64,000 bases of DNA, from the NCBI RefSeq assembly GCF_004135935.1, contig NZ_CP025086.1, positions 1,116,001 through 1,180,000 on the forward strand, in the 5' to 3' direction. The position numbers and the translations under genes were made by a program. The notes under the pieces were generated by a model, which ran no database searches, was not told where the DNA came from, and saw only the letters and a program-made list of their open reading frames with translations. Positions 12,507 to 37,149 of the stretch are shown here, piece by piece. Source of the DNA: Methylovirgula ligni. GTDB taxonomy: Bacteria > Pseudomonadota > Alphaproteobacteria > Rhizobiales > Beijerinckiaceae. Position 1 is the stretch's first letter; each line of letters opens with the position of its first letter.

Positions 12507-12952
12507 AATCCGCCTCCTTTACTGCCGCCGACCGCCTTTCGCCGGGTCGGACTTGCTTGGGATTGAACGGCAAGATTCTCTCTCCAACGGATGCCTCTGT
12601 CGACTGGAAAGGTGGCGTTGCCCTGTGACATCGCCCCTGGATCGGGGTGCGGCCGCAACCGAAACGCCTCCATGGCGGCGCTCTGCCGGGCGAGTTTCCG
12701 GGCCAATGCGTCGATTTCGGCCCGCCGCTCGAAGCGCAAGATGGCGAGATTCTCGCGATAGAGGTGCTCATCCGGCGGTGTCCAGGTGCTCTTACCGCGT
12801 CCGAACTGCCGGGCCTTGGTGCGGAAGGTGATGACCATCCGCTCGGCGCGGGCCGCGATCTGGTGTTCGATGATGTTGAGATGGCGGGCGGTCTCGGCGC
12901 GCGCCCTCTCCAGGCGCGTCAGCGTAGCGCACCCTTTCGTATGAGTCGGCAT
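12503..12952 (-). CDS. Hypothetical ICE protein, helical
   Basis: The 149-residue protein is rich in Arg, Ala and Glu and looks helical in the first 100 residues (RLERARAETARHLNIIEHQIAARAERM, RENLAILRFERRAEIDALARKLARQ), with a polar tail. I do not recognise a family. It overlaps the downstream membrane-protein gene by four bases and is separated from the ParB-like gene by 111 bases. It may act as a soluble partner of the membrane protein, but there is no direct evidence. Confidence 0.6.
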   Translation of the reverse strand: MPTHTKGCATLTRLERARAETARHLNIIEHQIAARAERMVITFRTKARQFGRGKSTWTPPDEHLYRENLAILRFERRAEIDALARKLARQSAAMEAFRLRPHPDPGAMSQGNATFPVDRGIRWRENLAVQSQASPTRRKAVGGSKGGGL

Positions 12953-13063
12953 GGTGATGTCCTGCTGTCGAGGTCATCCGGCCGCGCGGCCCAAGCCGCG
13001 CGGCCGGATTTCCATCTGCCGGGAAGGAAAGCCGGGACCGCCTGTGCGGCCCCGGCTCGCCCT

Positions 13064-15115: not shown

Positions 15116-15420
15116 GGTCTTTCTCCTATGGGTTTGGGTTGCAGCGCGCGCTGCAACCCTGCCCGTCGGCGAGACCGGGGTAGCAAGGGCAAGGGCGGCC
15201 GGGGCGGAGGGGGATCACCCGGCCTGCACAAGCGGATTTCCGCAGTTACAGAAGTGCCGAAAGTCGTATCCGCGCGGAAGGCTGGGGAGACCGCCCTGGA
15301 CGGCGCCGGCTTGCCGGAGCTTCACCCTTGCCCGCGCGAGGGCGGAGCCCTTAGCGAAACCGGCCCGGCGTGAGCGCCAGCGGGAGCCGGACGATGGTGC
15401 GATCAGGGATGTAAGCTCTG
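15116..15420 (-). repeat. Duplicated leader, copy 2 (upstream of ParB-like gene)
   Basis: This is the partner of 10647-10910. It contains a perfect 24-base palindrome at 15136-15159 (GGGTTGCAGCGC and its complement), then the 41-base block identical to copy 1. An insertion of about 40 bases absent from copy 1 lies near 15235-15275. The remaining bases to 15638 show no gene and separate the minus-strand backbone from the plus-strand cargo. Confidence 0.75.
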
Positions 15421-15638
15421 GTGGCGGTGACAGCGTGTCCCTGATCCCCGTGCGCGTCGGGGCGTTGCGGGGTGTCCTTCCAGAAGGGGTGTGCCGGCGA
15501 CCGCGGCGCCGGTCAGGGGGAAAGCTTTCCCCCAACAGGCTCACTTCGAAATCGCAGTGACTCCGGTTCCAACGATCACATCCTTGACTTCCAATTGTCA
15601 TGGCTCATAGTTCCAATTTACTGGACCTTGGAATCGGC

Positions 15639-16859: not shown

Positions 16860-16916
16860 GGCGATGATCCGATTTGCCGACTGAGTTACGATAGACGAAA
16901 TAGTGGGGGAGCGAAA

Positions 16917-17159
16917 TTGGCCAAGCCTGTAATCAGTTACGACATTTCTGACGATAAATCAGTCTTGGAAAATGTCGAAGCCTACAAAGAAAAGCTCAAA
17001 GAGATCGATCCTGAGCTGGGTCCGCTGCTGGCGGGCCTCCTGCCGTCCCTAATGAAGGAGCCTAACGGCGACAAGAGCGCCATGCTTACCAAGTTGAGAG
17101 CTGTTCTCGACGTTGAAGTCAAACCTGACTCTGACCAAAGGGAGGAACCGTCTCAATGA
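16917..17159 (+). CDS. Small protein at head of SMC operon
   Basis: The 80-residue protein starts at TTG 16917 behind GTGGGGGAGCG, and its stop overlaps the ATG of the SMC-like gene in ATGA. The sequence is acidic and helical (VLENVEAYKEKLKEIDPELGPLLAGLLPSLMKE), with no cysteine or recognisable motif. The tight coupling to a large SMC-like ATPase suggests a dedicated subunit or regulator. I do not recognise a family. Confidence 0.7.
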   Translation: MAKPVISYDISDDKSVLENVEAYKEKLKEIDPELGPLLAGLLPSLMKEPNGDKSAMLTKLRAVLDVEVKPDSDQREEPSQ

Positions 17160-19624: not shown

Positions 19625-19646
19625 CATTGCGGTCAGGAGAGGGTAA

Positions 19647-21176
19647 ATGGGCGTGAGGGACGGAGGCCGGGAGAGCGATGTTTCTGGCGCGCGCGCCGAG
19701 GGGCCGTGGTCGAGTCTTGCTCTGGAAACTATCGGCTGGAAAGCCTTCCAGGATCTCTGCTCGCAGGTTTGCGAGGAGGTGCTGAGAAGGCCGGTGCAGA
19801 TTTATCGGGAGGCTCAGGACGGTGGTCAGGATGCAGTCTTCATCGTGGAGGGGCCGAATGGGGCGGTCGATGCGACAGTGCAGTGCAAGCACTCCGCTGA
19901 TCCGCGCAGGCGGCTTAAGGCGGGAGATCTCAATGGCGAATTCGACACGGTCGCCGAGTTGGTTGCCGCCAACCAAGCTGATACCTACTTCTTGATAACC
20001 AGCATGGGCGTCGATGCCGCTGTTGCTGTTGAAATCCGCACGAAATTACGGGCGCTGGGGGTTCGAAAGCCGCATGTACTCGGCCGCGAGTACCTTGTGC
20101 GAGCAATCCGAGCAAGTGCTCGCCTCCGCGCACTTGTCCCGCAGGTCTACGGCCTTGGCGATCTCGGCGCGATCCTTGATCAGCGGCTGATTCAGCAGAC
20201 CAGAGCCTTGCTCGACCACTGGATTCAGAAACTGAAGCTCTATGTCCCAACATCAGCGCACAGAAAAGCCGTTCGCGCGTTGACGGAATACGGGATCGTC
20301 CTCCTGCTCGGCAATCCGTCGACTGGCAAATCAACGATCGGGGCAATCCTTTCTACGATCGCGAGCGAAGACGCCGACCATACCGTCCTACACCTCACCA
20401 GCCCACGTGACTTCGAAGCGAACTGGAATCCGGCGGACCGCAAGCGCTTCTTTTGGGTCGATGACGCCTTCGGCTCAAATGCAGTGCGTGACGAGTATGT
20501 GCGAGACTGGACCTCAGCATTCCGAAAGGTGCAAGCGGCCATCGGGCATGGGAATCGCTTCGTGTTGACTTCGCGTCGGCATATTTATGAGGCTGCCAAA
20601 CGCGGCCTGGGTCAACGAAACCATCCGGCCTTTCTGGATGGTCGCGCGGTCGTTGATGTCGGTGAGCTCTCCTCCGAGGAGAAGACACAAATTCTCTATA
20701 ACCACATCACGTACGGAGCGCAGACGCAGAGCTGGAAGAGATCGGTGCGTGACTTTCTAGACGCCGTTGCGAAGGTGGAGGGATTTCTGCCCGGCATCGC
20801 CGAACGTCTCGGCGATCCTGCGTTCACGAAGGGGCTCGGCACTTCGGAGCGCGAGTTGATCCGCTTCATGAAGGAGCCCCGCGAGCATCTGATCGACACA
20901 ATCAATGCGCTCGACGAACCACTCCGGGCGGCACTGATCCTTGTCTACGTCCATCAGGGGGCGCTGAGCAGCGACCAGGGTGACGACGAAGCTTGTAGAG
21001 CTGTCGCGGAGTTGGTTGGCGAATCGCTCCCGCGCATTCATGAGCGCATGTCCGAGCTGAAGGGGTCATTCCTCCGGGTAGCGCGAGTGAGTGGCAAAGA
21101 CGTGTGGGGGTTTGCCCATCCGACAATTGCCGACGCGCTCACAGAGCCGGCCCAGGAAATCTGGACGGTAGGATAA
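19647..21176 (+). CDS. Restriction-endonuclease-like / nSTAND NTPase, 5' part (split by IS)
   Basis: The frame starts at ATG 19647 after AGGAGAGG, 22 bases from the SMC stop. Residues 25-180 look like a PD-(D/E)XK (Mrr-like) nuclease with GGQDAVF and VQCKHS as acidic and Q-x-K strands. A P-loop NTPase follows with Walker A LLGNPSTGKSTIG and Walker B FFWVDDAFG, matching nSTAND3-type NTPases. The coding sense ends at GFAHPTIADALT; the last ten codons belong to the insertion sequence at 21142. The 3' part is at 22557-23372. With the IS removed the frame would be 778 residues, an Avs-like nuclease-STAND layout. As it stands it is truncated and probably inactive. Confidence 0.85.
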   Translation: MGVRDGGRESDVSGARAEGPWSSLALETIGWKAFQDLCSQVCEEVLRRPVQIYREAQDGGQDAVFIVEGPNGAVDATVQCKHSADPRRRLKAGDLNGEFDTVAELVAANQADTYFLITSMGVDAAVAVEIRTKLRALGVRKPHVLGREYLVRAIRASARLRALVPQVYGLGDLGAILDQRLIQQTRALLDHWIQKLKLYVPTSAHRKAVRALTEYGIVLLLGNPSTGKSTIGAILSTIASEDADHTVLHLTSPRDFEANWNPADRKRFFWVDDAFGSNAVRDEYVRDWTSAFRKVQAAIGHGNRFVLTSRRHIYEAAKRGLGQRNHPAFLDGRAVVDVGELSSEEKTQILYNHITYGAQTQSWKRSVRDFLDAVAKVEGFLPGIAERLGDPAFTKGLGTSERELIRFMKEPREHLIDTINALDEPLRAALILVYVHQGALSSDQGDDEACRAVAELVGESLPRIHERMSELKGSFLRVARVSGKDVWGFAHPTIADALTEPAQEIWTVG

Positions 21177-23492: not shown

Positions 23493-24917
23493 TTAGACGA
23501 TGGTCAATTGGCTGTGGATGGCTTGGAAGGCGCTGATCTTATCAATTCGCGCCTTTAGGTAGTCGCGATAATCCATCAAAAGGCCGAGCGGATCTCCGAT
23601 CGGATCGGCTATCAGTCTCTCGGTCTCTGCAAGAGCATGTGGAAGGGTCAGCGGTCCACCGCTGTCTTCGATGAGACGCCGGGCGAGGCGAACGTCTGCC
23701 GTTCGCTGGGAGTCTGAATCGAGCAGCGAGCGATGTTCGTAATGGATCAGGCGCTGGGCGAAGGCCTGCAGGCGTTGGTCTTCAAAGTGGCCGGCGATCT
23801 GCACCCTCTCCCATCCGTTAGCATCGTGAAAATCGAACATGCGTTGCTGGTCAGCGTCCGAGGGAAACCCGTCGGAATAGAGACGCCTTTCAACATGGGG
23901 TGACGGCGGGACGTCTGCCCAAGATGCCGAATAGAGAGCAATGATCTTGCCGCAGAGACCAGGATCGTTCTTGAACTGTAGCGCTCGCCTTTCAGCGATC
24001 GCGGGATCAACCCCGTTTAACAGACCATCGGTAGCGTCATAGAAACTGGTCAGGGTCGGAGCGCCGTTTACGCGAATGCGCCGGACGGGCGTTCCCTTGC
24101 GCGCGATCTCGGCTCGGATGTCGACGTCTGTCATGCTGCGCCACGTTTCCGGGGCGATGGAGAGATCGAGGCAGAACCGTCCATTCGAGTTGGTGGGATT
24201 ACGGCCGATGCAGACGACGGCCCGGTGAATCGGCTCCCCTGCAAAGAACTCCGTGAGGACGAAACCATCTTCTCCATCTACGAATTCGGCGACCGCCGCC
24301 CGATTTGAGAACCGAACAAACCTCTGCCACGCTTCGTTTGAGCATCTCCTCACCAGCCGGCAAAGATCGACGACCGCTAGTGTGTCCGACATCGCGTCAT
24401 GAGCACCCGCATGCGCGACGCCATTGGCGGGGGCCAGTTGATCGAGTTTGAAGCTGGGCCGACCGTCCGATTTTCGCGGAACGATCAGGCAGCTAGGCGT
24501 CAACGCACAAGCGGCCTGAACCAATCCGAAGGCATCGGCGCGCCCGTTCTGATGGTGGCTCGTGAGATAGGCAGGAAAAAGAGATTGAAAAAGGCCGTAG
24601 CGCAGCATGTGCTCGTCAAAGCCGATCGAGTTATATCCAACAAAGATTGCAGGCGACCAAGCAATGAGCTGCCGACGAATCTGGGACATCATTTCGTAGT
24701 GGGAGGGCTCTGAGCGGTCGTTCAAGCGCGTGATGGGAAGGCCGTTGGCGCGCAGTGCGCTTGGATGCGGCACCACATGAGGCTGAAGGCGAGCGCGCAT
24801 TTCGAACCGGCCCGATTCGTTCAGGTCATGGTCCGTTTGGATCGCGGCGAAGTGGACGATCTGATCAAAGGCCGGATCTAGGCCTGTCGTCTCGGTGTCG
24901 AAGAAGACATAGCCCAT
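23493..24917 (-). CDS. Exonuclease I-like DEDDh 3'-5' exonuclease
   Basis: The 474-residue protein starts MGYVFFDTETTGLDP, with Exo I residues Asp7 and Glu9. Exo II is in GYNSIGFDEHMLR and Exo III in AHDAMSDTLAVVDL, giving a complete DEDDh set. The length and C-terminal half match the SbcB/ExoI architecture more than DnaQ. It should degrade single-stranded DNA 3' to 5'. It is the last gene of a minus-strand operon with an XRE regulator and an ImmA protease, 13 bases behind the latter. A mobile ExoI copy in a cargo region may serve defence or counter-defence rather than housekeeping repair. Confidence 0.85.
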   Translation of the reverse strand: MGYVFFDTETTGLDPAFDQIVHFAAIQTDHDLNESGRFEMRARLQPHVVPHPSALRANGLPITRLNDRSEPSHYEMMSQIRRQLIAWSPAIFVGYNSIGFDEHMLRYGLFQSLFPAYLTSHHQNGRADAFGLVQAACALTPSCLIVPRKSDGRPSFKLDQLAPANGVAHAGAHDAMSDTLAVVDLCRLVRRCSNEAWQRFVRFSNRAAVAEFVDGEDGFVLTEFFAGEPIHRAVVCIGRNPTNSNGRFCLDLSIAPETWRSMTDVDIRAEIARKGTPVRRIRVNGAPTLTSFYDATDGLLNGVDPAIAERRALQFKNDPGLCGKIIALYSASWADVPPSPHVERRLYSDGFPSDADQQRMFDFHDANGWERVQIAGHFEDQRLQAFAQRLIHYEHRSLLDSDSQRTADVRLARRLIEDSGGPLTLPHALAETERLIADPIGDPLGLLMDYRDYLKARIDKISAFQAIHSQLTIV

Positions 24918-24930
24918 GGCGCGCGGCCCC

Positions 24931-25458
24931 TCAGAACCAGCCGCCGCTGAGGCGGTTACGCATGGCGGACACACTCACCTTGAATTTTTTCGCGAGGCTC
25001 TCAATCGCGGCGTCGTCATCAAGGTCGAGCCCCGCATCTCCCACCGCCTCCAGCAAGAATTGGCGGGGCATGAGCAGTTCTGACGCAAACGCATTGGCGT
25101 CGATCTCAAGTGGATCTGTTCCCTGCGCGGCTAGCTCATCGCGATGCAGGACACGGAATCCTTTGTCGACGTGAACCGCAGCGGAGATTTCGGGCACATG
25201 CAGGACATGGTGGGCGAGTTCGTGGGCGGCGGAGAACCGCTGGCGATTGGGATGGTGCAGCGCGTTCACACCGATGATGGCTACTCCATCCTTAATGTAG
25301 GCCATTCCGGAAAGCTCTTCGGCGAGCGGAGCGTATTGCAGCACAATGTTACGGGCTTTGATTATCCGTTCCACTGGGACCGGCACCGCGCGAACCGGAA
25401 AATCGGCGAGAATTTTCAATGCAGCCGCGCGCGCAGTGGTGGGATCTGCTTGTCTCAC
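24931..25458 (-). CDS. ImmA/IrrE family metallopeptidase
   Basis: The 175-residue protein has the zinc-protease motif HELAH at residues 79-83 (SAAHELAHHVLH) and the downstream EIDANAFASELLMP with the third-ligand glutamate. Members cleave XRE-type repressors on damage or infection signals, as ImmA does for ImmR. Its ATG overlaps the stop of the upstream XRE gene by four bases, the classical repressor-protease pairing. By family analogy it probably inactivates the protein encoded by 25455-25802, which may control the divergent ubiquitin-like operon. Confidence 0.92.
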   Translation of the reverse strand: MRQADPTTARAAALKILADFPVRAVPVPVERIIKARNIVLQYAPLAEELSGMAYIKDGVAIIGVNALHHPNRQRFSAAHELAHHVLHVPEISAAVHVDKGFRVLHRDELAAQGTDPLEIDANAFASELLMPRQFLLEAVGDAGLDLDDDAAIESLAKKFKVSVSAMRNRLSGGWF

Positions 25459-25802
25459 CGCCTGCCCTTAGCGCTATGGGTGGCGAGAACGCTCGCGACC
25501 AAGTCGCTAACCTGAGCCACGTCGCGGGACGAGATAGCACCATCTGTGACGTTTACCTCCAACGGGCCGAGCGCCGCTTTCGGCCGTGCGGGCAAAAGGT
25601 CTCCCACTTTCGGCATCTCCAGAGCCGTGGCGAGATCGTAGACATGATGCAAGAGCACGTTCTGCCTCCCCTTTTCGATGTTCGCTACGGACGCTCGAGA
25701 TATCCCGACCAAGCCCGCAAGATCGGCCTGGGTCAGCTCTAGTTCTTCGCGGCGCTGAGCGACGGCCCTACCGAAGGCGACGTTGATCGGGTTTCTGATC
25801 AT
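25455..25802 (-). CDS. XRE family repressor paired with ImmA
   Basis: The 115-residue protein has an N-terminal HTH_3 domain (FGRAVAQRREELELTQADLAGLVGISRASVANIEKGRQNVLLHHVYDLATAL) and a C-terminal linker and tail that may be the ImmA cleavage region. It is the first gene of the minus-strand operon XRE-ImmA-ExoI. It is divergent from the ubiquitin-like operon; the 170-base spacer has two palindromes and a promoter facing right, so it probably represses that promoter and its own. Confidence 0.9.
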   Translation of the reverse strand: MIRNPINVAFGRAVAQRREELELTQADLAGLVGISRASVANIEKGRQNVLLHHVYDLATALEMPKVGDLLPARPKAALGPLEVNVTDGAISSRDVAQVSDLVASVLATHSAKGRR

Positions 25803-25972: not shown

Positions 25973-26380
25973 ATGATCGACGATGACGCCGAGGACGGCG
26001 CTGAACGTAAGGAACTAGAGGATGTCGAGCGGCTGCTAAAAGACGCGGCGCGCGAAGGTGAGATCGCGAAAGAGGCCGTTGAGAAGCAGGCTGAGGACCT
26101 TGTTGAAGCCGAGCACGAGCTTGAGGCGCTTCGCCACCCGCCCACGGTTACCATCATCGTCGACGGGACGCCGCATCAGGTTCGGCGGCGCGAACACATC
26201 ACCTACGCCGAGGTTGTGACCTTGGCCTACCCTGACTACCCGCAGCACCCCGAAATCACGTATTCGGTCACCTACACCAAGGGGCCCGTCGAGAAGCCCG
26301 AAGGCATCCTGTCTCCGGGTGGCAGCGTCAAGGTCAAGGAAGGCATGGTGTTCCGTGTTAATCGAACTGGCCAATCATAA
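25973..26380 (+). CDS. Ubiquitin-like protein (multiubiquitin-domain type) with helical N-terminus
   Basis: The 135-residue protein starts after a strong ribosome binding site. Residues 10-50 are a charged helix or coiled coil (RKELEDVERLLKDAAREGEI). Residues about 55-132 match the prokaryotic Multiubiquitin domain: PTVTIIVDGTPHQVRRREHITYAEVVTLAYP, ITYSVTYTKG and GGSVKVKEGMVFRVNRTGQS, a beta-grasp pattern. Only one such domain is present and the C-terminus ends GQS, not Gly-Gly, with no room for a processed tail. The E1-like gene starts inside its last codons. It is the probable modifier or scaffold of a ubiquitin-like defence system. The family assignment is by pattern recognition. Confidence 0.8.
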   Translation: MIDDDAEDGAERKELEDVERLLKDAAREGEIAKEAVEKQAEDLVEAEHELEALRHPPTVTIIVDGTPHQVRRREHITYAEVVTLAYPDYPQHPEITYSVTYTKGPVEKPEGILSPGGSVKVKEGMVFRVNRTGQS

Positions 26381-27527
26381 CGAAGACATCCGTCGACTCT
26401 TGGACAAGGGCTACGCTCTAAGGGTCGACGGAGGCTCCCTGGTCGTAAGGGACATCCCCTACCTTGACGCCGCGAAAGCGCTGCAATGGGGCGCTTTCGT
26501 CGCGAAGCTTGTCTTCATCGATAAGGTTCGGGTGCAGCAGGACGACCACCAAGTCTATTTTGCAGGATCCGTCCCCCATGGCTTGGACGGCAAGCCCGTT
26601 CCGAACCTCGCCGGCGGGCCACGTCGCATCCCCCTCGAGAAGAATGATGTTGTCGTTCAGCGATCGTTCTCGAACAAGCCGTCCGGAGGTTTCGCGAACT
26701 TCTCCGACAAGATCGAGCACTACGTGCAGTTGATTTCGGGGCCGGCGATGTCACTGCATGACGTGACCCCGCTGACCTTCCGGGTTGATCACGACGTCGC
26801 CGCCGGATCGGCATTTAAGTTCCATGACACTCTCACGAGCCGGGCGGAGCTCGGCGATCTTGCCGCCGTATTTAAGAACGACATCGTCGCGGTGATCGGG
26901 CTTGGTGGCACAGGCGCCTATCTGCTCGACTTCCTTGTTAAGACACCGGTGAAGGAGATCCGGGGGTTCGACGGCGACGCCTACTATGTCCACAACGCCT
27001 ATCGCTCTCCTGGCCGGCTGCAAGAAGACGAGCTCGGCAAGGGGAAGGCGGATGTCTACCGTCTCCGCTACGAAAACTTCCGCGAAGGCCTGACTGTCCA
27101 TCAAATGTACATCACAGAGGAGTCGGCGAACGAACTCGTAGACGTGACGTTTGCGTTCGTCTGCGTAGACAAGGGGTCCGCTCGTTCAGAGATCTTCGAT
27201 TTGCTGATCCGGTTGAAGATCCCATTTATCGACGTGGGCATGGGTCTTGACCGGAAGCAGGGAGCACTATCCGGCACGCTGCGCGCCACCTACTATTCGA
27301 CGGCGACGGCTTCGCAAGTGCGAGACATGCAGTTGGCTGAAATGGCAGATCATCCCGAAGACCTGTATCGAACGACAGTTCAGATCTCTGAGCTGAATGC
27401 GTTGAACGCCTGCCTCGCCATCATCAGGTACAAACAGCTTCGGGGCTTTTACGTCGACGACAGCGCGGCATACCATGTGCTGATGGGCGTCGAGAGTCTG
27501 CGGATCTTCGCCGAGCGTACCGAGTGA
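26355..27527 (+). CDS. E1-like ThiF adenylyltransferase with N-terminal DUF6791-like region
   Basis: GTG 26355 gives a 390-residue protein (start LIELANHNEDIRRLL) overlapping the ubiquitin-like gene by 26 bases. ATG 26319 would add only shadow sequence. The N-terminal 150 residues (LVVRDIPYLDAAKA, VYFAGSVPHGLDGKPVP, RSFSNKPSGGFANFSDKIEHYV) resemble DUF6791. The adenylation core has GLGGTGAYLLDF at about 182, GFDGDAYYVHNAYRSPG, the lysine region GKGKADVYR and VCVDKGSAR. Known Bil/Bub-type E1 proteins adenylate the modifier's C-terminus. I see no cysteine in the usual crossover-loop position; the only cysteines after the P-loop are in FVCVD and NACLAI. There is no separate E2 gene. Confidence 0.85.
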   Translation: MLIELANHNEDIRRLLDKGYALRVDGGSLVVRDIPYLDAAKALQWGAFVAKLVFIDKVRVQQDDHQVYFAGSVPHGLDGKPVPNLAGGPRRIPLEKNDVVVQRSFSNKPSGGFANFSDKIEHYVQLISGPAMSLHDVTPLTFRVDHDVAAGSAFKFHDTLTSRAELGDLAAVFKNDIVAVIGLGGTGAYLLDFLVKTPVKEIRGFDGDAYYVHNAYRSPGRLQEDELGKGKADVYRLRYENFREGLTVHQMYITEESANELVDVTFAFVCVDKGSARSEIFDLLIRLKIPFIDVGMGLDRKQGALSGTLRATYYSTATASQVRDMQLAEMADHPEDLYRTTVQISELNALNACLAIIRYKQLRGFYVDDSAAYHVLMGVESLRIFAERTE

Positions 27528-27928
27528 AAACCCTTGTCCTGAAGCGCGTAGAATTCATGCCGAGGGATTTGTCCCCCGGCGTGCTCTACGTATCGGAGGA
27601 ATATGGCGTGGCCGGCCACCTCTGCGCCTGCGGCTGCGGCAACAAGGTCATAGTGCCGCTGGGGCCCACAGAGTGGACCTTTCACGAAAAGGCAGGGCGA
27701 CCAACCTTGCGGCCGTCCATCGGAAATTGGCAGCTGCCTTGCCGGTCTCACTACGTCATCACCAACGGGAGGATCGAGTGGGCAGGCGCGTGGTCCGAGG
27801 ACGCTGTGATCGCAGGCCGTCGCGCAGAGGAGGCCCGGCGCGTGGCATACTACGCCAAGTTGGATCGAGACCGGGGCTTCTGGCATCGTCTTTGGAAGCG
27901 GATTCTCAAGATCATCGGTCGCAACTGA
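27524..27928 (+). CDS. DUF6527-like cysteine-rich protein
   Basis: The GTG start overlaps the E1 stop (GTGA), so translation is coupled. The 134-residue protein has Cys34, Cys36 and Cys38 in LCACGCGNKV, then PSIGNW and LPCRSHYVITNG with Cys73 and His76. A helical, basic C-terminus ends WHRLWKRILKIIGRN. This is the DUF6527 pattern, which occurs with multiubiquitin and ThiF genes. A protease or deubiquitinase-like role has been suggested for such partners, and Ser65 with His76 could be reactive residues. I cannot confirm this from sequence; a zinc-binding structural role is equally possible. Confidence 0.75.
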   Translation: MKTLVLKRVEFMPRDLSPGVLYVSEEYGVAGHLCACGCGNKVIVPLGPTEWTFHEKAGRPTLRPSIGNWQLPCRSHYVITNGRIEWAGAWSEDAVIAGRRAEEARRVAYYAKLDRDRGFWHRLWKRILKIIGRN

Positions 27929-28021: not shown

Positions 28022-28050
28022 CGATTGTGCAGCAGCCTGTTGCACAATCG
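28022..28050 (+). terminator. Ten-base-pair hairpin after the ubiquitin-like operon
   Basis: CGATTGTGCA at 28022-28031 pairs perfectly with TGCACAATCG at 28041-28050 around a nine-base loop. There is no T tract, so it may be an operator for the downstream AddB-like operon rather than a terminator. It shares the TTGTG/CACAA sequence with the palindrome at 25845-25854. Confidence 0.45.
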
Positions 28051-28164: not shown

Positions 28165-30855
28165 ATGCAACTGATCTTCGGCGCCACAGCCGATGGCCGA
28201 ACCTATCCGGACCACGCTGGCGCGAAGCATGGGGCGCTAGACCGCGCGCTCGTCGGGCCGGCCAGTCTGGTGGAGGCGCTGGAAGCCCAGTTTGGCTTAC
28301 TCGGTCCAGTGGCGCCCAAGGCGGTCCGGATCGCCGCCTACCTCGCGAAACTTCGTGCCGCGGGTGATGGCAAGTTCTGGTCCCTATCGTTTTCCAAGGA
28401 TGCCTGGTCCACCGCCGTCCTCTTGCTTGGCTGGCGCGACGCGCTTGTGGCGGGGGGCTGGTCAGGCGCGCCAGCCGGTGCGACGCGGCCGGATGATCTT
28501 GCGGCCGTGGAGCGGGCCGGCGCGCCTCTGCCGCCGGGCCTCGCCGATCGTCTGACGGCTGTGCTGGCGGCGATCGGCAACCGGCCAGGGTTACGCCTGG
28601 AGCGCCTGACCCTCATCGAGCCGCGCGTCCGCTTGGCGCCGCCCTGGCGCCGCTTGGTGGATGCCCTCGAAGCCGCCGGTGTGCCGATCGAGGAATGGCC
28701 GGCGACCCCATCGGCCGCGCCCGGCTCGGACCTCGCTCGCGTCCAGGCGACCTTGGGCGGCGCGGCGGCCGAGCCTCTGCTCGGCGACGGCTCGTTCACG
28801 CTTGTCGAGGCGGACACCGCCCTCATGGCGGCGGAGGCGGTCGCCGACTGGTTGGCCGCAGGGCCGAAGGAAGAACTCGCCGGGACGGTCGTATTGGCGC
28901 CCGATGGAGACACGGCCCTTCTGGACCGCGCGCTGGCGGCGCGCAGACTTCCAGCGCTTGGCCTTTCCAGCCCATCGGCTTGGCGGGGCGCGCTTCAGGT
29001 CCTACCGCTCGCCTTCGCCGTCGCTTGGCGACCTTTCGACCCGAAGACACTCTTGAACCTCTTGATGCTTCCACGCCCGCCGATCGGTGGCTTTGCGGCC
29101 GGGCGACTGGCACGCGCGCTCGTGGCCGAGCCCGGGCTTGGAGGGCGAGCTTGGACGCAGGCGTGGGAGGACATCTCGGCGTATCTGCTCGCCCGCGAGA
29201 CGGACGCCGACGCCGCCGAAGCGGACCGCAAAATCGCCCGCCAGATGGCGCGGTGGCGCGATTGGACGGCCGGTGGCGAGTTTGACCGGGTTCAGGGCAT
29301 GAGCGCCGCCGACGCCCGCCAGATCGCCGGACGTGTGGCCGCCTGGGCAATGGCGGCCGATGCCGGCAACGGCGACCGCCTATTCCTCGCTGTCGCCGCT
29401 GCTGCCGCCGGTTTCGTCCGTGCGGTCGATACGCTGCGCCAGGACTTGCTGCCAGCCCTGTTGATCGAGCGTATTTTGGGCGACGTCCTGGCCGAAGGGG
29501 TGGCCAATCCCGAGCATGTGGCGGAGGCTGGCGGTCTCCGAGCCGTACATGCGCCTGGAGCACTTTGGGCACCGGCACAGCGGCTGGTCTGGTGGAATTT
29601 TGTCGGCCCAGGCGAAAAAGTAGCGCCAATCCCGTGGAGTCGATCTGAACTGGCGGCTTGGGCAAAGGCTGGCGTCGAGTTGGAGACTGCGCCCAACGCC
29701 GCGCGCCGAATCGGGGCGGGCTATACTGACGCCTTGATGCGGGTCACCGAGCGCGTCTTGCTTGTACGGCCCGCCCTCTCGGGCGCTGACGAAACTGTGG
29801 CCCATCCGCTTGCACATCAGCTCCATCCCCTCACCGAGTCCGCGGACGAGCGGGTGCGCTGGCGGGCGGAAAGTCTGTTAAGCGAGGCCAGAGGCCAGGT
29901 GGCGAGACGTGTTCTCACACGCCAACCGGTGGATCTGATCGACGCGCCCCTCGGCCGCCCCAGTTGGGGCGTACCGGCCGCGGCGTTGGTCCGTCTGGAG
30001 GGACGGCGCGAAAGCGCCACCGCCCTCGGGCGTCTTTTGAACTGCCAGTTGAGTTGGTTCGCGCAAGATGTTCTGCGCCTGCGGCTTGGCCGATTCGCTG
30101 AAATCCCGGGTGCCGACCAACTGTTCGGCAACCTCGCCCATGAGATCGCTAACCGCCTCCTGCCGCCCGGGCCGCCGCCACCACTGACGGACGTCCGGAT
30201 GCGCGCCGCCGCGCTGTTCGACGATCTTCTCCCTCGGATGGCCGCGCCTCTGCAGCAGCCCGAATTAGCCGGTGAACTGGCTGCCGCCCGCGAACGCGTG
30301 CCGGCCGCGCTAGAAGCGCTTGTGCGGATGCTCCACGAGCGCGGCCTCGAAGTGGTGGGCGCCGAGCTCGATCGGGAAGGAACATCCGATGGTTTGGCCC
30401 TGCAGGGCCGCCTTGATCTGTTGGTGCGCCGCGGGTCCACCTCCGCGATCGTGGACCTCAAATGGACACGCTCGGTGCGACGTTACCGCGATGAGATCGC
30501 CGAAGGCCGCGCAGTGCAGCTTGCAGTCTATGGCGCGATTGCCAACCCACACGGGCCGGCCATGGCCACAGGCGGATACTTCCTCCTGCGTCAGCGAAGG
30601 CTATTTGCCGGGCGGGGCACTCTTCTGGCCGACGAGGACATCGAAACCGTACGCGATCAGGCTGACACCCTTCGCGATGTCATCGACGACTGGAGAACAT
30701 GGCGAGGCCTCCTCGATCAGGGCGTTGTCGTCGCTGCCGGGGTCGACGGAGCGGATGCTTTGCGGCCTGCCGGCTTGGCTTTTGAGACCTCCAAGGACCC
30801 TTGCAAATTCTGTGACTTGACCGGCCTGTGCCGGGTGCGCGTGGAGGCGGTCTGA
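28165..30855 (+). CDS. AddB-like PD-(D/E)XK exonuclease
   Basis: The 896-residue protein starts after GGGGGAGGGTGAACG. The C-terminal nuclease has GRLDLLVRRGSTSAIVDLKWT, giving the D...DxK core. An AddB-type cysteine arrangement is visible: one Cys in LNCQLSWF before the nuclease, and the triplet CKFCDLTGLC near the end, enough for an iron-sulfur cluster. The N-terminal half is an inactivated helicase-like region without Walker A. The gene is coupled by TGATG to the helicase-nuclease gene. With it, it should form a two-nuclease DNA end-processing machine. It differs from host AddB in sequence and context and is probably a defence variant. Confidence 0.85.
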   Translation: MQLIFGATADGRTYPDHAGAKHGALDRALVGPASLVEALEAQFGLLGPVAPKAVRIAAYLAKLRAAGDGKFWSLSFSKDAWSTAVLLLGWRDALVAGGWSGAPAGATRPDDLAAVERAGAPLPPGLADRLTAVLAAIGNRPGLRLERLTLIEPRVRLAPPWRRLVDALEAAGVPIEEWPATPSAAPGSDLARVQATLGGAAAEPLLGDGSFTLVEADTALMAAEAVADWLAAGPKEELAGTVVLAPDGDTALLDRALAARRLPALGLSSPSAWRGALQVLPLAFAVAWRPFDPKTLLNLLMLPRPPIGGFAAGRLARALVAEPGLGGRAWTQAWEDISAYLLARETDADAAEADRKIARQMARWRDWTAGGEFDRVQGMSAADARQIAGRVAAWAMAADAGNGDRLFLAVAAAAAGFVRAVDTLRQDLLPALLIERILGDVLAEGVANPEHVAEAGGLRAVHAPGALWAPAQRLVWWNFVGPGEKVAPIPWSRSELAAWAKAGVELETAPNAARRIGAGYTDALMRVTERVLLVRPALSGADETVAHPLAHQLHPLTESADERVRWRAESLLSEARGQVARRVLTRQPVDLIDAPLGRPSWGVPAAALVRLEGRRESATALGRLLNCQLSWFAQDVLRLRLGRFAEIPGADQLFGNLAHEIANRLLPPGPPPPLTDVRMRAAALFDDLLPRMAAPLQQPELAGELAAARERVPAALEALVRMLHERGLEVVGAELDREGTSDGLALQGRLDLLVRRGSTSAIVDLKWTRSVRRYRDEIAEGRAVQLAVYGAIANPHGPAMATGGYFLLRQRRLFAGRGTLLADEDIETVRDQADTLRDVIDDWRTWRGLLDQGVVVAAGVDGADALRPAGLAFETSKDPCKFCDLTGLCRVRVEAV

Positions 30856-33800
30856 TGTCTGGCACAATCCAGGTGGTGACTGCGGCTGCGGGTGCCGGCA
30901 AAACGACACGGATCGTTGACGATATCGCGGCGGACGTCGGCGTCCGCCCGCCCGAAGAGATTCTTGCCACCACCTTCACCATCAGGGCGGCTGACGAGCT
31001 GGTGCAGCGCACGCGTTCTGAATTGTTCCGCCAGGGCCGGGTCGACCTAGCTGGGCGGTTGTTGGGCGCTCGGTTCGGCACCGTGAACGCGGTCTGTGGC
31101 CAAATCGTTGCGGAGTACGCCCTGGAGCTCGGACGCTCTACTTCGACGAATGTGATCGCCGACACCAATGAATCCCTGGTGTTCGCCATCGCTGCCGATG
31201 CTGCGATCGGGGCCCACGCACCGCTCCTCAATGACTTGGCGGAATCCTTCGGGCACGACGACCCTCATCCGCCCGGCAAGGAGCCGCCGGACTGGCGGCG
31301 AACCGTCCGTTCGGTGCTGTCCCTTGCCCGCGCCAACGGAATCAACGCGGAAGCCTTGGCGAGGTCCGCCCAGCGGTCGGAGCAGAGCTTCTTAGCACTG
31401 TTCCCGCCGGCGGCGGCAAGCGGCGAAACGCTCGATGCGGCGCTCGCCGATGCTGTGGCCGCCGCGGTCGCCGCCGTCCCCACCACGCCGAGTGCCACGG
31501 CCAATAGCGGGGGCCTGCCTGCCCTGCGCGCCGCCCACGCGCGACTTTCACGCGATGAACGACTGACTTGGTCAGCCTGGGCCGCTCTGACCAAGGTGAA
31601 ATGCGCCCCGACCAAGGACGGTCGCAGCTATGCCGAAGCCCTGGCCCAGGTTGCTGCCGCCGCAGGCCGACATGGCGAGCATCCTCGTCTCTGCACCGAC
31701 GGCGCCCGCTTCATTCGTGAGATCTTCCTGTGCGCGGCGGAGGCGTTGCAAGCCTACCAGACGCATAAAGCCGAGCGCGGCCTTGTGGATTTCACGGACC
31801 AGGAGGCGCTTGCCCTGCAGGTACTGCAGGATCCTGCGCTGTCGGCGCGTTTGCGTGAACGGATCAGTCGGGTCTTCGTCGATGAGTTTCAGGACTCGAG
31901 CCCGCTCCAACTCGCGGTGTTCACCGCCTTGGCCGAGATTGTCGAGGCCAGCACATGGGTCGGCGACCCCAAACAGGCGATTTACGCCTTTCGCGGTGCT
32001 GACACCGACCTTACGCAGTCAGCCTTCGCCGGCGCGGCCGATTCAGCGACGAGCGATGTGTTGTCCGTCTCGTGGCGCAGTCGGCCGGACATCGTACGCC
32101 TCGCCAATGCGGCGTTTGGGCCGGCCTTCGAACGTATGGGGCTACCTGTGACGCGCCATGCCTTTTCGCGCGCCGCGCGGTCGGATAACGGGTTCGACCG
32201 GCATGCATTGGGCTACTGGCCGTTGATCGGCAAGGTCGACGAGCAGGCGGCCGCACTGGCACAGGGACTGCGCGGCGTCCTCGCAGAAGGCGCGTCTTGG
32301 AGCGTCGAACAACCCCGGGAGGTCCATCGGCCGTTACGTGTCGGCGACATCGCCGTCCTTTGCCGCACCAATACCGATGTTGCGCGCTATGCCGCCGCTT
32401 TGAGCCGCGAAGGACTGCCGGTGGCTGTCGAGAGGACAGGCTTGGCGCGTACCCCGCACGTGGAATTGTCCCTGGCGGCCTATCGTTGGATTGCCGACCG
32501 CACCGATCGCCTAGCGCTTGCGGAATTGGCTCGGTTCTTCGCCGTCGATCCGGAATCTGACGCGTGGCTGCAGGCGGCCGCTCAGGAGTCGGATGATGCG
32601 CTGCAGGCCGTGGTCCCCATCGCCTCAGCGCTCTCGGCCCTTCGCGATCAGATATTGAACCTGACGCCGGCCGAACTCCTGGACGCGGTCTTGGTCTTGC
32701 CGGAGGTGGTCGGCCGAATCGAGCGCTGGGGCGACCATGCCATTCGCCTAGACGACTTGGAGGCGCTACGCGGCTACGCGCACGCCTACGAGGCGGAGTG
32801 TATGGCCTCGGGTGCGCCGGCGACACCGTCGGGCCTGTTGCTCGCGCTGAAGGGCGCCGACCCGCAGCGGCCGCCGAGTCTTGCCGCCGATGCGATCCAG
32901 ATAATGACCTATCACGGGGCCAAAGGCCTCGAGTGGCCGATGGTCGTCCTTACCGGTTTGGCGTGGGAGCCCAGGGCACGGCTGTTCGAGCCTACCGCAG
33001 AAGTCGATGGAGAGCTCGATTGGCGCTGTCCCCTGGCGAACCGGTGGATCCGTTATTGGCCCTGGCCCTATGGGCTGTCCGGATCCGGCTGCGACTTGGA
33101 CGTGAACGCCGCAGCCTCGCAACCGGGACAGGAAGCATGGCGCCGAGCCGCGCAAGAGGACACGCGCCTGCTCTATGTTGGTGTCACCCGAGCGCGCGAT
33201 TACCTCGTGCTGGCCCCACCGGCGAAAGGCGCGCTGAATTGGCTGAAGGTCCTCGATGATCCAGGTGGTTCGCCGCATGTGAACTTCCCCGCCGAGGGCG
33301 ACAACCTTATCCGCGTGGGTGCCGAGACGTTTGTCGCGGACGTTCGTCGGCTTGCGGCCTCCGAGGAGGAGACCCTACGGGCGATTCAGCTTACGCACGT
33401 GCGGTGGCCCGCCGCCGACGTGAGCGTGCCGAGGCCATTGCACCTACGCCCTAGCGAGACCCAGAGTGAGGCCGAGTGGACCATTGTCGAGAGCATGAGT
33501 CTCGGTGGCCGCCTACGCATCGATGGCGTTACCGACATGGCGAGTCTCGGCGAGGCCGTGCATGCCATCCTCGCTTACGACGACCCGGCTCGGTCGGTGG
33601 AAATCCGCTGGGCTGATGCTCAGGCGACACTTGAACGCTGGGGAATCCTGGGCCTCTCCGCCGTCGACGCGATTGCGGCGTCAGATCGACTCCATGCAGC
33701 ATTGGCGGGGCGCTGGCCGGGCGCCAAGCTAACGCGTGAGGTTCCCGTCGTTGCCACGCTAGGCGATCAGTTGGTCCGCGGACGGATCGACCTGTTGGCA

Positions 33801-34046
33801 GAAACCTCGAGCGGCTTTGCGATCATCGATCACAAGAGTTTTCCCGGTGCGCCGGATCTGTGGACCGAGCGGGCGCTCCGATACGCGCCGCAACTGGCTC
33901 TCTACGCTGAGGCCGTGCAGGCGGCGACAGGACAGCGCTGTGCTGACCTCTTTGTGCATATGCCCATTGTTGGCGCATTACTGCGTCTGGCGCCTGCGCG
34001 CCCGCCAACCTTTCCCAGTTCGGCTGGAGGCCATGCTGTCACATGA
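30855..34046 (+). CDS. AddA-like UvrD helicase with C-terminal nuclease
   Basis: The 1063-residue protein starts MSGTIQVVTAAAGAGKTTR (Walker A). It carries SF1A motifs in order: TFTIRAADELVQR, VFVDEFQDSSPLQ (Walker B), VGDPKQAIYAFRGAD, LSVSWRSRPDIV, IMTYHGAKGLEWP and LLYVGVTRARDYL. At the end is a second nuclease core, RGRIDLLAETSSGFAIIDHKS. The helicase plus nuclease plan equals AddA. It is translationally coupled to the AddB-like gene, and its stop overlaps the phosphatase start. The pair could resect linear DNA such as incoming phage or plasmid DNA. Confidence 0.88.
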   Translation: MSGTIQVVTAAAGAGKTTRIVDDIAADVGVRPPEEILATTFTIRAADELVQRTRSELFRQGRVDLAGRLLGARFGTVNAVCGQIVAEYALELGRSTSTNVIADTNESLVFAIAADAAIGAHAPLLNDLAESFGHDDPHPPGKEPPDWRRTVRSVLSLARANGINAEALARSAQRSEQSFLALFPPAAASGETLDAALADAVAAAVAAVPTTPSATANSGGLPALRAAHARLSRDERLTWSAWAALTKVKCAPTKDGRSYAEALAQVAAAAGRHGEHPRLCTDGARFIREIFLCAAEALQAYQTHKAERGLVDFTDQEALALQVLQDPALSARLRERISRVFVDEFQDSSPLQLAVFTALAEIVEASTWVGDPKQAIYAFRGADTDLTQSAFAGAADSATSDVLSVSWRSRPDIVRLANAAFGPAFERMGLPVTRHAFSRAARSDNGFDRHALGYWPLIGKVDEQAAALAQGLRGVLAEGASWSVEQPREVHRPLRVGDIAVLCRTNTDVARYAAALSREGLPVAVERTGLARTPHVELSLAAYRWIADRTDRLALAELARFFAVDPESDAWLQAAAQESDDALQAVVPIASALSALRDQILNLTPAELLDAVLVLPEVVGRIERWGDHAIRLDDLEALRGYAHAYEAECMASGAPATPSGLLLALKGADPQRPPSLAADAIQIMTYHGAKGLEWPMVVLTGLAWEPRARLFEPTAEVDGELDWRCPLANRWIRYWPWPYGLSGSGCDLDVNAAASQPGQEAWRRAAQEDTRLLYVGVTRARDYLVLAPPAKGALNWLKVLDDPGGSPHVNFPAEGDNLIRVGAETFVADVRRLAASEEETLRAIQLTHVRWPAADVSVPRPLHLRPSETQSEAEWTIVESMSLGGRLRIDGVTDMASLGEAVHAILAYDDPARSVEIRWADAQATLERWGILGLSAVDAIAASDRLHAALAGRWPGAKLTREVPVVATLGDQLVRGRIDLLAETSSGFAIIDHKSFPGAPDLWTERALRYAPQLALYAEAVQAATGQRCADLFVHMPIVGALLRLAPARPPTFPSSAGGHAVT

Positions 34047-34534
34047 TTGAGGTTTACCAGAATCTATTTGTGGGCGCGCAGACAGACGAGGTCGCCATTC
34101 GCGGCCAGAGCGGTTGGTTCGTTATTCACGCGTGCAAGGAGCCCTATCATCGGCATGCTCTCGGCTACACCACGCCCGGTGCGCCGAAGAATCATCCGGA
34201 ATATCTACTCGCTGCGCGTCCAGGCTGCCTGATCTTGAACCTGGTCGACGTTGACAAGGTAAGCTTCATCGCGCCGGAAATTATCAACGCGGCACTGAAC
34301 GCCGTCCGGGACAATATTGGATCGTCAAGGGTTCTGATTCACTGCAACCAGGGTATGTCACGCTCGCCCGCAATCGCGCTTTTGTATCTGCTGAAGCATA
34401 CTGATGCCCTTGGTGTGAAGGAGCACATACAGGCAGTGCGGGCATTTCAGACGCTTTACCCTTCTTATGCGCCCGCGAAGGGAATGGCGGACTATGTCAT
34501 GCTAAACTGGGATAAGTACCTTCCCGCCGGCTGA
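34043..34534 (+). CDS. Dual-specificity / tyrosine phosphatase-like protein
   Basis: The 163-residue protein contains the complete phosphatase signature HCNQGMSRSP (Cys101, Arg107) and a plausible general acid in NLVDVDKV (Asp69). The size is that of a minimal dual-specificity phosphatase domain. It overlaps the AddA-like stop by four bases, so it is made with the helicase-nuclease. A phosphatase in this position is unusual; it could relieve or sense phosphorylation of the complex, or hydrolyse a nucleotide signal. That is inference. Confidence 0.82.
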   Translation: MIEVYQNLFVGAQTDEVAIRGQSGWFVIHACKEPYHRHALGYTTPGAPKNHPEYLLAARPGCLILNLVDVDKVSFIAPEIINAALNAVRDNIGSSRVLIHCNQGMSRSPAIALLYLLKHTDALGVKEHIQAVRAFQTLYPSYAPAKGMADYVMLNWDKYLPAG

Positions 34535-35559: not shown

Positions 35560-36837
35560 TCAGGCGGCCTTCTTGGAGGCGCTGGCAGCCTTGGCCGACT
35601 CCCCCTTGTCCAGCAGCGACGCGATTTCCTCGCATGTGCGCGCCGTGGCCAACTTCAGAGCCTCGTCGATGTGGATGTAGTCCTGGGTCACGCTCTGGGA
35701 GCCGTGACCGAGCAAGGCCCGAATGGTCAGTTCCGAGAAGCCCAGGTCTCCCGCGACGCTCGCGAACGTGTGCCGCAACGTGTGGGGCGTAACGCCTTCA
35801 ATACCGACCGACGCACACAGCCGCTCTAGGCAAGCTTTGGCGGCGGTGTAGTGCCCCTCGCCGACCTCAGACGGAAACACATAAGGCGAATTCACACGCA
35901 TCGGCTGCTGTGCGATCAGCTTCACGGCAGAGGAGCCAATCGCCCTGACCTGAGCGTCGCCCTTGGTGTCGGGGAAGCCCACATAGCCTTCCGCGGCGGC
36001 GACCCATTCACGTTCGAGGTTTTGCCCCTCGGAAATCCGAAACCCAGTCAGAAGCAGAAGCCGCACGATGGCGAGCGCGATGGGGCTTTCGGTCTCCTTG
36101 AGCGCCGCATGACGCATCGCCTGGCCGAGCTTCACGATCTCGGGAACGCTCAAACGCCGGTTCTTCTTCTTCCCGGCCAGTTTCCGCGCACCCTTACTCG
36201 GATGAGCTTCGATGCGATCGAGGCGTACTGCGTGCCCGAGGATGCTTTGCAACGTCGACACGGTGCGCGCGGCGACGCCAGGCCCCCCGGTGGTCGCGCC
36301 GCCTCGGCCCTCGCCGCGTGGCTTAGCGGTTTTCCCCGCGACGATGTCCGATTGCATGCGCTCGATATCGGCGATCTTGAGGGTGTGGATCAGCGCTTTG
36401 CCCAAGAGCGGCTTGATGTGTGTTTCGATCCGGCTCTTGTCCATCGCGAGGGTCGAGGCTTTGATCGGCCGGTTCCGGCGTCCGAGAATACGGCCGGCCT
36501 TGGCTTCCTCAAGATACCAGTCGCACAGCGCCGCCACGGTCGTTTTCCTCCGTGTGTCGGGCTTCTTGGCCGGGTCATTGCCCTTGGCTAGTTCGCCGAA
36601 TTTCACCTTGGCAAGATCGCGTGCGTTCTCAACCGTGATCGCGCCGAAGCGCCCGAGCTTGATCCGGCGGGTCCGGCCGTCGGCATCTCGGTACTGAAGG
36701 ATGAAGGTCTTCAGGCCAGAGTGAATGACCCGGACGCCGAAGCCCTTCAATTCGCCATCCCAAAGGAAGCCCTGTTCGCCCTGCTTGCCCGGGGGCGTTA
36801 GGCCTTCGACGGCCGTCTTGGTCAACCTCCCGCTCAT
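35560..36837 (-). CDS. Tyrosine recombinase / ICE integrase
   Basis: The 425-residue protein starts MSGRLTKTAVEGLTPPGKQG. The DUF4102-like N-terminal domain (LWDGELKGFGVRVIHSGLKTFILQYRDADGRTRRIKLGRFG) identifies the P4/bacteriophage-type integrase class. A SAM-like core-binding domain follows, then the catalytic residues Arg (TGFRISEGQ), His and Arg (HTLRHTF), His (LLGHGSQ) and Tyr (TQDYIHID). The frame is open to 37086 but that extension is only the translation of the tRNA fragment. It is the enzyme that recombines the tRNA-Gly att site 190 bases upstream. Confidence 0.95.
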   Translation of the reverse strand: MSGRLTKTAVEGLTPPGKQGEQGFLWDGELKGFGVRVIHSGLKTFILQYRDADGRTRRIKLGRFGAITVENARDLAKVKFGELAKGNDPAKKPDTRRKTTVAALCDWYLEEAKAGRILGRRNRPIKASTLAMDKSRIETHIKPLLGKALIHTLKIADIERMQSDIVAGKTAKPRGEGRGGATTGGPGVAARTVSTLQSILGHAVRLDRIEAHPSKGARKLAGKKKNRRLSVPEIVKLGQAMRHAALKETESPIALAIVRLLLLTGFRISEGQNLEREWVAAAEGYVGFPDTKGDAQVRAIGSSAVKLIAQQPMRVNSPYVFPSEVGEGHYTAAKACLERLCASVGIEGVTPHTLRHTFASVAGDLGFSELTIRALLGHGSQSVTQDYIHIDEALKLATARTCEEIASLLDKGESAKAASASKKAA

Positions 36838-37024
36838 GACGCCTTCCTCTTTGCGATCCGATCTGCTTACATTATCAGGCCTACCAAAAAATGTAAGCAC
36901 TATGTAAGCAGTTCGGCGCAAGCGGAGGGCGGATCGGTCGGGGACGAGCGTAGGATGTTCTGTATAACCTACTGTTTTATAGGGATGTAGAGTGACGCAG
37001 AGTGGCAAGGCGAAGGATAATCTG

Positions 37025-37073
37025 GACCTTGCCAAGGTTGGGGTCGAGGGTTCGAATCCCTTCGCCCGCTCCA
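37025..37073 (+). other. attR: 3' half of tRNA-Gly(GCC)
   Basis: The sequence contains the anticodon loop TTGCCAA (GCC at 37031-37033), variable region, T-arm GAGGG-TTCGAAT-CCCTT, the acceptor 3' strand CGCCCGC, discriminator T and an encoded CCA ending at 37073. The anticodon stem matches E. coli tRNA-Gly(GCC) closely. No D-arm or 5' acceptor strand precedes it; upstream bases are element DNA. It is therefore the duplicated core of a tRNA-Gly attachment site. The intact tRNA is expected at the other end of the ICE. Confidence 0.85.
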
Positions 37074-37149
37074 AATAGTCTTCCATGCGCGCTGGGCAGA
37101 GGGTTCAAGGGCAAGCAGGCCCGCTGCCTCGTTGAATGGGGGCTCGCCA

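Follow-up and report, generated by a model that had tools for sequence, protein, structure and literature searches.

In the genome of Methylovirgula ligni, a stretch of 64,000 nucleotides (assembly GCF_004135935.1, contig NZ_CP025086.1, positions 1,116,001 to 1,180,000; hereafter the window, whose own numbering is used for its features) carries, between 28165 and 34534, genes for an AddB-like protein, an AddA-like helicase-nuclease and a dual-specificity phosphatase (DSP), placed after an operon for a ubiquitin-like (Ubl) protein. The question raised by this locus is whether the three genes encode a regulated DNA-degrading defence complex, as a first-pass annotation had suggested, or a housekeeping AddAB enzyme with a phosphatase that is only incidentally adjacent. 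Our analysis indicates that the locus is an AddAB-like helicase-nuclease used as an accessory, together with a promiscuous accessory phosphatase. The reading that we favour, with reasonable though limited confidence, is that of accessory AddBA defence cargo to which a defence-associated phosphatase has been added, a reading that states no fixed substrate for the DSP. What stands of the original suggestion is the non-housekeeping pair, the defence-type neighbours on an integrated element or on plasmids, and the defence-associated phosphatase family; what falls is the dedicated triplet.

Catalytic centres and gene junctions of the AddBA pair

The AddB-like protein (28165..30855, forward strand, 896 aa) matches PF12705 (PDDEXK_1, E 2.2e-21) and is followed on the same strand by the AddA-like protein (30855..34046, 1063 aa), identified by Pfam as a UvrD/SF1 helicase with a C-terminal PD-(D/E)XK nuclease (UvrD N, 2.4e-37; UvrD_C, 2.3e-16; PDDEXK_1, 2.3e-09). 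Read directly from the open reading frames (ORFs), the AddB stop codon and the AddA ATG have one base in common (TGATG, at 30855), and AddA and the DSP gene (34043..34534, forward strand, 163 aa) overlap by four bases (ATGA); the description "fused by overlap" is thus right for the genes and wrong for the products, which are three separate proteins with no protein fusion.

Both large proteins keep their nuclease cores, as had been claimed. Residues H659, D751, D764, K766, Q785 and Y789 of the AddB-like protein are invariant in 24 homologues, and in the AddA-like protein, whose motifs include GAGKT, DEFQD, GDPKQ, VTRAR and GRID/DHK/QLALY, the Walker A lysine K16, the DExQD residues D343-D347 and the nuclease residues D979, D992 and K994 are invariant in all 22 relatives. 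The set of iron-sulfur (Fe-S) cysteines ascribed to the AddB-like protein is also complete (C627, C880, C883 and C889, four cysteines in all), in a C...CxxCx5C layout that we take to resemble that of Fe-S nucleases of the AddB type; in Bacillus, AddB has a nuclease plus Fe-S-type cysteines. All four cysteines are gone from the homologues in loci L082, L114 and L115. At its N-terminus the AddB-like protein has what we judged by eye to be a degenerate Walker A motif.

A profile comparison (hhalign) aligns the AddB-like family with housekeeping AddB over 605 columns (probability 97.2, E 2.8e-11), and in the wide sense the pair belongs to the AddAB superfamily, as a two-gene helicase-nuclease with an AddB homologous over most of its length. 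The AddB-AddA gene order, the SF1 motor plus nuclease in AddA and the nuclease-bearing AddB all recall AddAB and RecBCD. Among PDB sequences no match to the AddB-like protein was found at E 1, and PADLOC 2023 returned weak matches to it (DruK, 7.9e-4; Cas1g, 1.1e-3; PDC-M40A, 0.018).

Separation from housekeeping AddAB

The window's genome (3.30 Mb, one contig) encodes a housekeeping AddA at genome positions 1880647-1884018 (1197.6 bits, cut-off 860.75) and a housekeeping AddB at 1884069-1887149 (957.9 bits, cut-off 486.5). The window AddA scores 137-150 bits with TIGR02784 (cut-off 860.75), and the window AddB is unreported by TIGR02786 in its own genome and matches no NCBIfam model at E 1. 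AddA and AddB over the cut-offs were likewise found in all five other alphaproteobacterial pair hosts searched. In an AddA tree of 36 rows, for which the tree tool issued a long-branch warning, the window sequence falls in an accessory clade of 22 rows (support 100/100, stem 1.62), and five over-cut-off AddAs form another group apart from it; four rows labelled housekeeping (L224, L226, L227 and L230) score below the TIGR02784 cut-off. In addition, the CxxCx5C motif is missing from all six alphaproteobacterial housekeeping AddBs examined.

Because the genome encodes AddAB elsewhere over the cut-offs and the tree separates the window AddA in its own clade, and given the sub-cut-off scores of the pair, its identity with housekeeping AddAB was ruled out. 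Judged by sequence, the pair is AddAB-like in descent and design, yet a separate accessory lineage that differs from AddAB in lying far under the family cut-offs, in a separate clade, and in being patchy and mobile. A position within housekeeping AddAB and a phosphatase only incidentally adjacent had been named in advance as grounds for rejecting the proposal; the pair falls outside housekeeping AddAB, whereas the phosphatase adjacency is indeed restricted to a small sublineage.

The patchiness is evident from the searches. Searches with the AddB-like protein gave hits in 7 of 385 genomes at class level, two of which are weak (E 7e-6 and 4e-5), in 14 of 398 at phylum level and in 26 of 72,556 plasmid records, 17 of the 26 being typed conjugative. 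Among 249 genomes searched at order level, the window's genome alone has the AddA-like protein at E 1e-60; G611, which belongs to this order and was picked up by the phylum search, is absent from that result. One match to the AddB-like protein was obtained among 50,697 phage records, no relative was confirmed in viral contigs, and near DNA matches of the three-gene unit in plasmids came to a single 35-base match. The two genes overlap or lie within 3 bases of each other in 32 of 33 pair loci. What follows AddA varies from locus to locus: in family f188 (L111, 15154-15747, and L112) the next gene overlaps the pair by four bases and encodes a protein of 198 aa, identified in L111 as UPF0227, an alpha/beta hydrolase. 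The genes after AddA in L104, L109/L124, L082 and L114 have no similarity to the DSP, and are mutually dissimilar except for L109/L124.

A phosphatase family with several partners

The DSP was identified from Pfam DSPc (E 1.5e-7, 31.7 bits, slightly under the 33.5 cut-off), conserved residues and a predicted structure. Its HCxxGxxR site is intact, as the first-pass annotation had noted, with the P-loop HCNQGMSR, and D69, C101 and R107 are invariant in 33 of 33 sequences. The predicted model (pLDDT 95.7) matches DUSP8 (4jmk; Z 16.7, rmsd 2.7, 136 residues), and the predicted fold, the Asp general acid and HCxxGxxR together mark the protein as a putative dual-specificity phosphatase. It is like DUSP8 and VHR in fold and in D69, C101 and R107 of HCxxGxSR, and differs from them in sequence (13-24% identity among the matches listed) and in having its family's own motif, HACKEPYHR...HPEYL. 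This signature, along with an HCNQGxSR P-loop, defines a family that extends over bacteria, archaea and phages; 62 genomic loci and 60 viral contigs contain relatives. The family is rare, with 3 positives among 385 class genomes at E 1e-10, and the window DSP has no match in PADLOC 2023.

A genome-wide search for the AddB-AddA-DSP triplet, suggested as a check of the proposal, did not find a dedicated one. Across the 33 pair loci the window and L018 alone have the DSP, by which a conserved dedicated triplet was ruled out, and it is absent from all 18 plasmid pair loci fetched (L076-L083 and L120-L129, with flanks of about 8 kb). Among the 62 DSP loci, only two, L018 and L021, combine the window's gene order with high identity to it. 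Neither is intact, L021 having only a C-terminal piece of AddA and a DSP split over two frames. A second AddBA-like lineage lies near a DSP in L028 (Acidobacteriaceae, 11002-16985).

Type I restriction genes were counted as strong from 200 bits for HsdR, 300 for HsdS or 600 for HsdM, and such genes were detected in 19 of the 62 DSP loci. None was detected in a comparison set of 39 loci, made up of 29 with the pair and 10 with Multi_ubiq (Fisher p 3.6e-5). The p value is only a guide because these loci are not matched to the DSP loci for taxonomy or length: they are mostly Pseudomonadota, whereas the DSP loci come from many phyla. In addition, a DSP locus, L023, served as the seed of the Hsd profiles. 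Among DSP loci of at least 12 kb the strong restriction-modification (RM) genes were found in 11 of 43, and a looser count of any Hsd match within 8 kb, weak matches included, gives 25 of 62. The DSP gene is often inside the Hsd operon. Pfam and PADLOC neighbour scans, which covered the loci named here as part of the 62, identified as other neighbours an OLD nuclease with UvrD (L017), BrxL (L063), S_4TM (L011), a KAP NTPase (L025), AAA_13/SMC-like proteins (L058, L065, L066), AbiTii (L038) and PDC-S71 (L013), as well as some that are not defence-like, namely an outer-membrane receptor (L067) and an asparagine synthase near L012.

On a DSP tree of 94 rows, whose bootstrap had not settled and which omits L002, L087, L088, L116, L089, L065, L068, L060, L021, uncalled ORFs and ORFs outside 140-230 aa, 17 rows carry the RM label, which takes 14 changes, and 4 rows carry the AddBA label, which takes 3; repeated, independent joins therefore fit. 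Two separate AddBA-DSP associations are seen, window with L018 and L028 with L037. From these sequence comparisons, the family appears as a promiscuous, mobile defence accessory rather than a fixed third subunit.

Two further arrangements involve members of this family. In the Vibrio phage locus L084 (4453-5498) the genes for the DSP and for an annotated HAD acid phosphatase share one base, a hint that in phages the role may concern phosphate on nucleotides or proteins. The sphingomonad DSP loci L012, L015 and L016 have an SbcB-like exonuclease about 2 kb upstream on the opposite strand, with an M78 peptidase in L015, an arrangement that recalls the window's left end.

Genomic surroundings

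The window segment encodes a RepA-type initiator, ParA and a ParB-like protein, and beside the DSP lie a Gp49/HTH toxin-antitoxin-like pair and a tyrosine integrase (35560..37086, reverse strand; Phage_integrase, E 4.6e-15, and Arm-DNA-bind_3) that probably marks this end of a mobile element. With these genes together, the locus is therefore probably an integrated mobile element. At 17156-21176 it contains an SMC/AAA_23-like protein (822 aa) and a PDC-S73 match (PADLOC, E 1.4e-27), followed by an IS3-type insertion; these genes are probably a further defence pair on the same element.

On the other side of the pair is the Ubl operon, all on the forward strand, which begins with a Multi_ubiq ubiquitin-like protein (25973..26380; PF14452, E 7.1e-16), continues with an E1-like ThiF protein with DUF6791 of the PRK06153 type (26319..27527; PF20590, E 3e-42; PF00899, E 7e-10; NF004803 over its cut-off) and ends with a DUF6527 protein (27524..27928; PF20137, E 1e-24). 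Ubl and E1 are present, with no E2 or JAB in the Pfam matches of the three genes, and a literature search on DUF6527 found no paper in the collection searched. The 237-base spacing reported between this operon and the pair is real, though by our count it is 236 bases from DUF6527 to AddB. Within it lies a 27-base palindrome or hairpin with a 13-bp stem (28023..28049), which occurs once in the genome and has a calculated energy of -19.6 kcal/mol as RNA in its 48-base context. It is a possible operator or terminator, and may give the AddBA pair separate control. A scan for sigma-70 promoters and terminators gave matches no more frequent than in shuffles, and the palindrome was absent from its terminator-like sites.

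Divergent from the Ubl operon, on the reverse strand, are an HTH regulator (25455..25802; HTH_31/HTH_3), an M78/IrrE-type metallopeptidase (24931..25458; PF06114, E 9.3e-24; homologues at the same position in L078 and L123) and an SbcB-like 3'-5' exonuclease (23493..24974; RNase_T, Exonuc_X-T_C; RTasSbcB, E 2.5e-87). The HTH-M78 pair and the exonuclease are common to the window, L078 and L123, the last two having Ubl-type cassettes different from that of the window. In gene content alone, the Multi_ubiq-E1-DUF6527 operon with a divergent HTH/M78 pair resembles Bil/Bub-type Ubl operons with CapH plus CapP or CapW, and by this analogy the window HTH and M78 proteins may be CapH-like and CapP-like. 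Controllers of the HTH-plus-peptidase and WYL kinds have been reported for Bub operons (PMC13373217). Other copies of the pair are adjoined by a divergent WYL regulator (L076, L077, L120, L082) or by CBASS genes (L122, L126), or have N6 methylases and restriction genes nearby (L077, L120). As far as gene content tells, such neighbours (WYL or HTH plus M78 regulators, CBASS, restriction, Ubl) are typical of defence loci.

Related helicases were also observed next to Ubl or DSP genes. L157 (2371-8348) has, near a Ubl operon, the second AddBA-like lineage (about 885 and 1110 aa) that in L028 lies near the DSP, and the two loci parallel the window in this; the first protein of L157 is without a PADLOC match. 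UvrD-family helicases of about 1130-1170 aa that group together lie near a DSP in L008 (4981-8379) and near Multi_ubiq in L149 (4836-8237) and L154 (2710-6222); those of L008 and, weakly, L149 match the M78 peptidase profile, a possible peptidase-helicase fusion.

Proposed function and alternative explanations

We propose that the locus is mobile-element cargo in which the accessory AddBA would degrade invading DNA from free or broken ends, with AddA translocating along the DNA and AddB stabilising the complex and cutting the second strand. Damage or infection would induce the locus via the divergent HTH and M78 regulators. A mobile phosphatase would have joined this DNA-end-degrading module as a third cistron, and the DSP would set the timing of the nuclease by dephosphorylating it, or a host or phage protein that controls it. 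The target DNA, the induction, the DSP substrate and any Ubl link are what we infer; at the sequence level, support is given by the intact motor, two intact nuclease centres, the Fe-S-type AddB, separate descent, gene overlaps, defence-type surroundings and the repeated occurrence of the DSP with unrelated defence systems. A DNA-degrading defence role for the pair is, in our judgement, likely, and a DSP that acts on or for the neighbouring nuclease is a tentative proposal. Several DSP partners contain a DNA-translocating nuclease (HsdR, UvrD plus OLD, AddBA), so the motor or its regulator is a plausible substrate. Phosphorylation of EcoKI HsdR has been reported.

Several observations weigh against the favoured reading and it is important to consider them together. 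AddBA is absent from most DSP loci, and the DSP is absent from 31 of 33 pair loci and so is dispensable for the pair. In L028 about 0.5 kb and a small ORF separate the DSP from AddB, and in L037, of the same family, the DSP is beside an AddA-like gene that is on the other strand and outside the AddA tree. The DSP family is also present in phages (5 phage records and 60 viral contigs, of which one has type I RM genes), so the DSP may serve a role that is not specific to defence, and phage DSPs are mostly outside RM contexts. In PADLOC 2023 no two-gene system fits the pair, whose AddA matches generic UvrD models. Family f188 supplies nine of the 14 pair-positive phylum genomes, and the pair is possibly near-resident there; in L129 AddB and AddA are separated by 2.6 kb, and broken copies were found in L018 (AddB in two frames), L122 and L128. 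Five non-alphaproteobacterial pair hosts have no AddA above the cut-off, a result uninformative on housekeeping AddAB there because the TIGR02784 cut-off is specific to alphaproteobacteria.

These points bear on what else the locus might be. The DSP could be an independent passenger that acts on a target of its own, such as the substrates of a phage protein kinase, and that sits last in a defence operon only in order to be expressed; its company of type I RM, OLD/Gabija-like, BREX-like, SMC-like and other systems and phages, the scattered RM label on its tree, and the closest relative, L007 (77%), with no recognised defence partner on an 11.7-kb contig, which also counts against our reading, would all suit this. 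Coupling is nonetheless suggested by the recurring four-base overlaps with the upstream gene (AddA in the window, L018 and L021; HsdS in L029, L039 and L047) and by the frequent position within Hsd operons, and we regard the passenger explanation as unlikely, though not strongly so. That the pair is instead a maintenance or repair enzyme of a plasmid or integrative and conjugative element, processing the element's own DNA ends, would agree with the many copies on conjugative plasmids, with the RepA-type, ParA, ParB-like and integrase genes of the window element, and with the repair function of AddAB enzymes. We consider it quite improbable, in view of the AddAB already possessed by the alphaproteobacterial hosts searched, of regulators and RM, CBASS and Ubl neighbours typical of immune loci, and of one pair copy (L104) on a 4.26-Mb contig.

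The Ubl adjacency is a more recurrent link to the pair than the DSP, and raises the alternative of a composite immune system in which the Ubl operon and AddBA are one unit, conjugation tags or activates the nuclease or its target, and the DSP was added late. Of 30 pair loci (the window plus 29), 8 have genes of the Ubl pathway (Multi_ubiq, E1/ThiF or JAB) no more than about 8 kb away: the window, L078, L080, L081, L109, L123, L124 and L125. L109 and L124 are tallied separately although they have an identical third gene and look like one element, and L081 and L123 have a recognised E1 and no recognised Ubl gene. In four distinct loci (window, L078, L109/L124, L123), with three cassette types between them, the Ubl-pathway genes immediately precede the pair in the same orientation; the shared HTH, M78 and SbcB set of the window, L078 and L123 is in line with this, as is the presence of Multi_ubiq in 12 of 385 class genomes versus two of the five strong-pair genomes (G000, the window's own, and G065). 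However, no Ubl genes were seen near 22 of the 30, those of L080 and L125 are on the opposite strand, Multi_ubiq and the pair are on different contigs in G065, and L152 has SbcB, M78, E1 and DUF6527 with the pair absent. Of the 26 plasmids with the pair, only 2 reappear among the 60 E1-bearing plasmids listed out of 115; co-residence on islands would likewise produce enrichment, and the plasmids represent few lineages. A composite system is thus doubtful in our view, and it is to the same degree doubtful that Ubl conjugation acts on this nuclease.

Comparison with known systems and significance

Among the closest known systems are Gabija and type I RM. Gabija (GajA, an OLD nuclease, and GajB, a UvrD) similarly combines a UvrD motor and a nuclease in defence, and the OLD plus UvrD pair of L017 also carries a DSP. 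The window differs in lacking an OLD/TOPRIM ATPase, in having its own PD-(D/E)XK on the motor and in its AddB-like partner; membership in Gabija was rejected, since the triplet has no AAA/TOPRIM protein and the GajB match is to generic UvrD. Type I RM (HsdMSR) is alike as a translocase-nuclease operon that recurrently houses the DSP family, and differs in its methyltransferase, specificity subunit and HsdR-type motor, none of which is in the window triplet.

Accessory enzymes in immune systems have precedents. The available portions of PMC12799240 describe a nuclease-protease module acquired repeatedly by unrelated immune systems, and those of PMC13092281 a metallophosphatase and a HAD phosphatase in a validated immune system, their targets being given as unknown. 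As far as these portions go, the accessory parts belong to other enzyme families and include no DSP; the word "phosphatase" does not occur in PMC12799240, and PMC10853773 and PMC12839542 make no mention of DSP, dual specificity, tyrosine phosphatase, AddA or UvrD. Among the titles and abstract openings listed, which include few subscription papers, none announced an AddBA-DSP operon or this DSP family as a defence accessory, and nothing relevant was found on DSPs in defence or Hsd operons.

A broader proposal, which we regard as improbable at present, is that one DUSP-like family is a mobile regulatory subunit of immunity, its dephosphorylation switching translocating nucleases (HsdR, Gabija-type UvrD plus OLD, AddBA), joined here by Ubl conjugation on one AddBA-type nuclease. 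From its occurrence in operons of the type I RM, Gabija-like and AddBA kinds, one would expect the DSP to have phosphorylated partners of one shared kind, and the nearby Ubl genes make the nuclease a candidate partner for a bacterial ubiquitin-like system that is still poorly understood. If the favoured reading is true, a mobile second AddAB-type enzyme would serve immunity alongside the repair enzyme, a eukaryote-like phosphatase would be a common control part of several unrelated immune systems, and the locus would offer a testable way into protein phosphorylation in phage defence.

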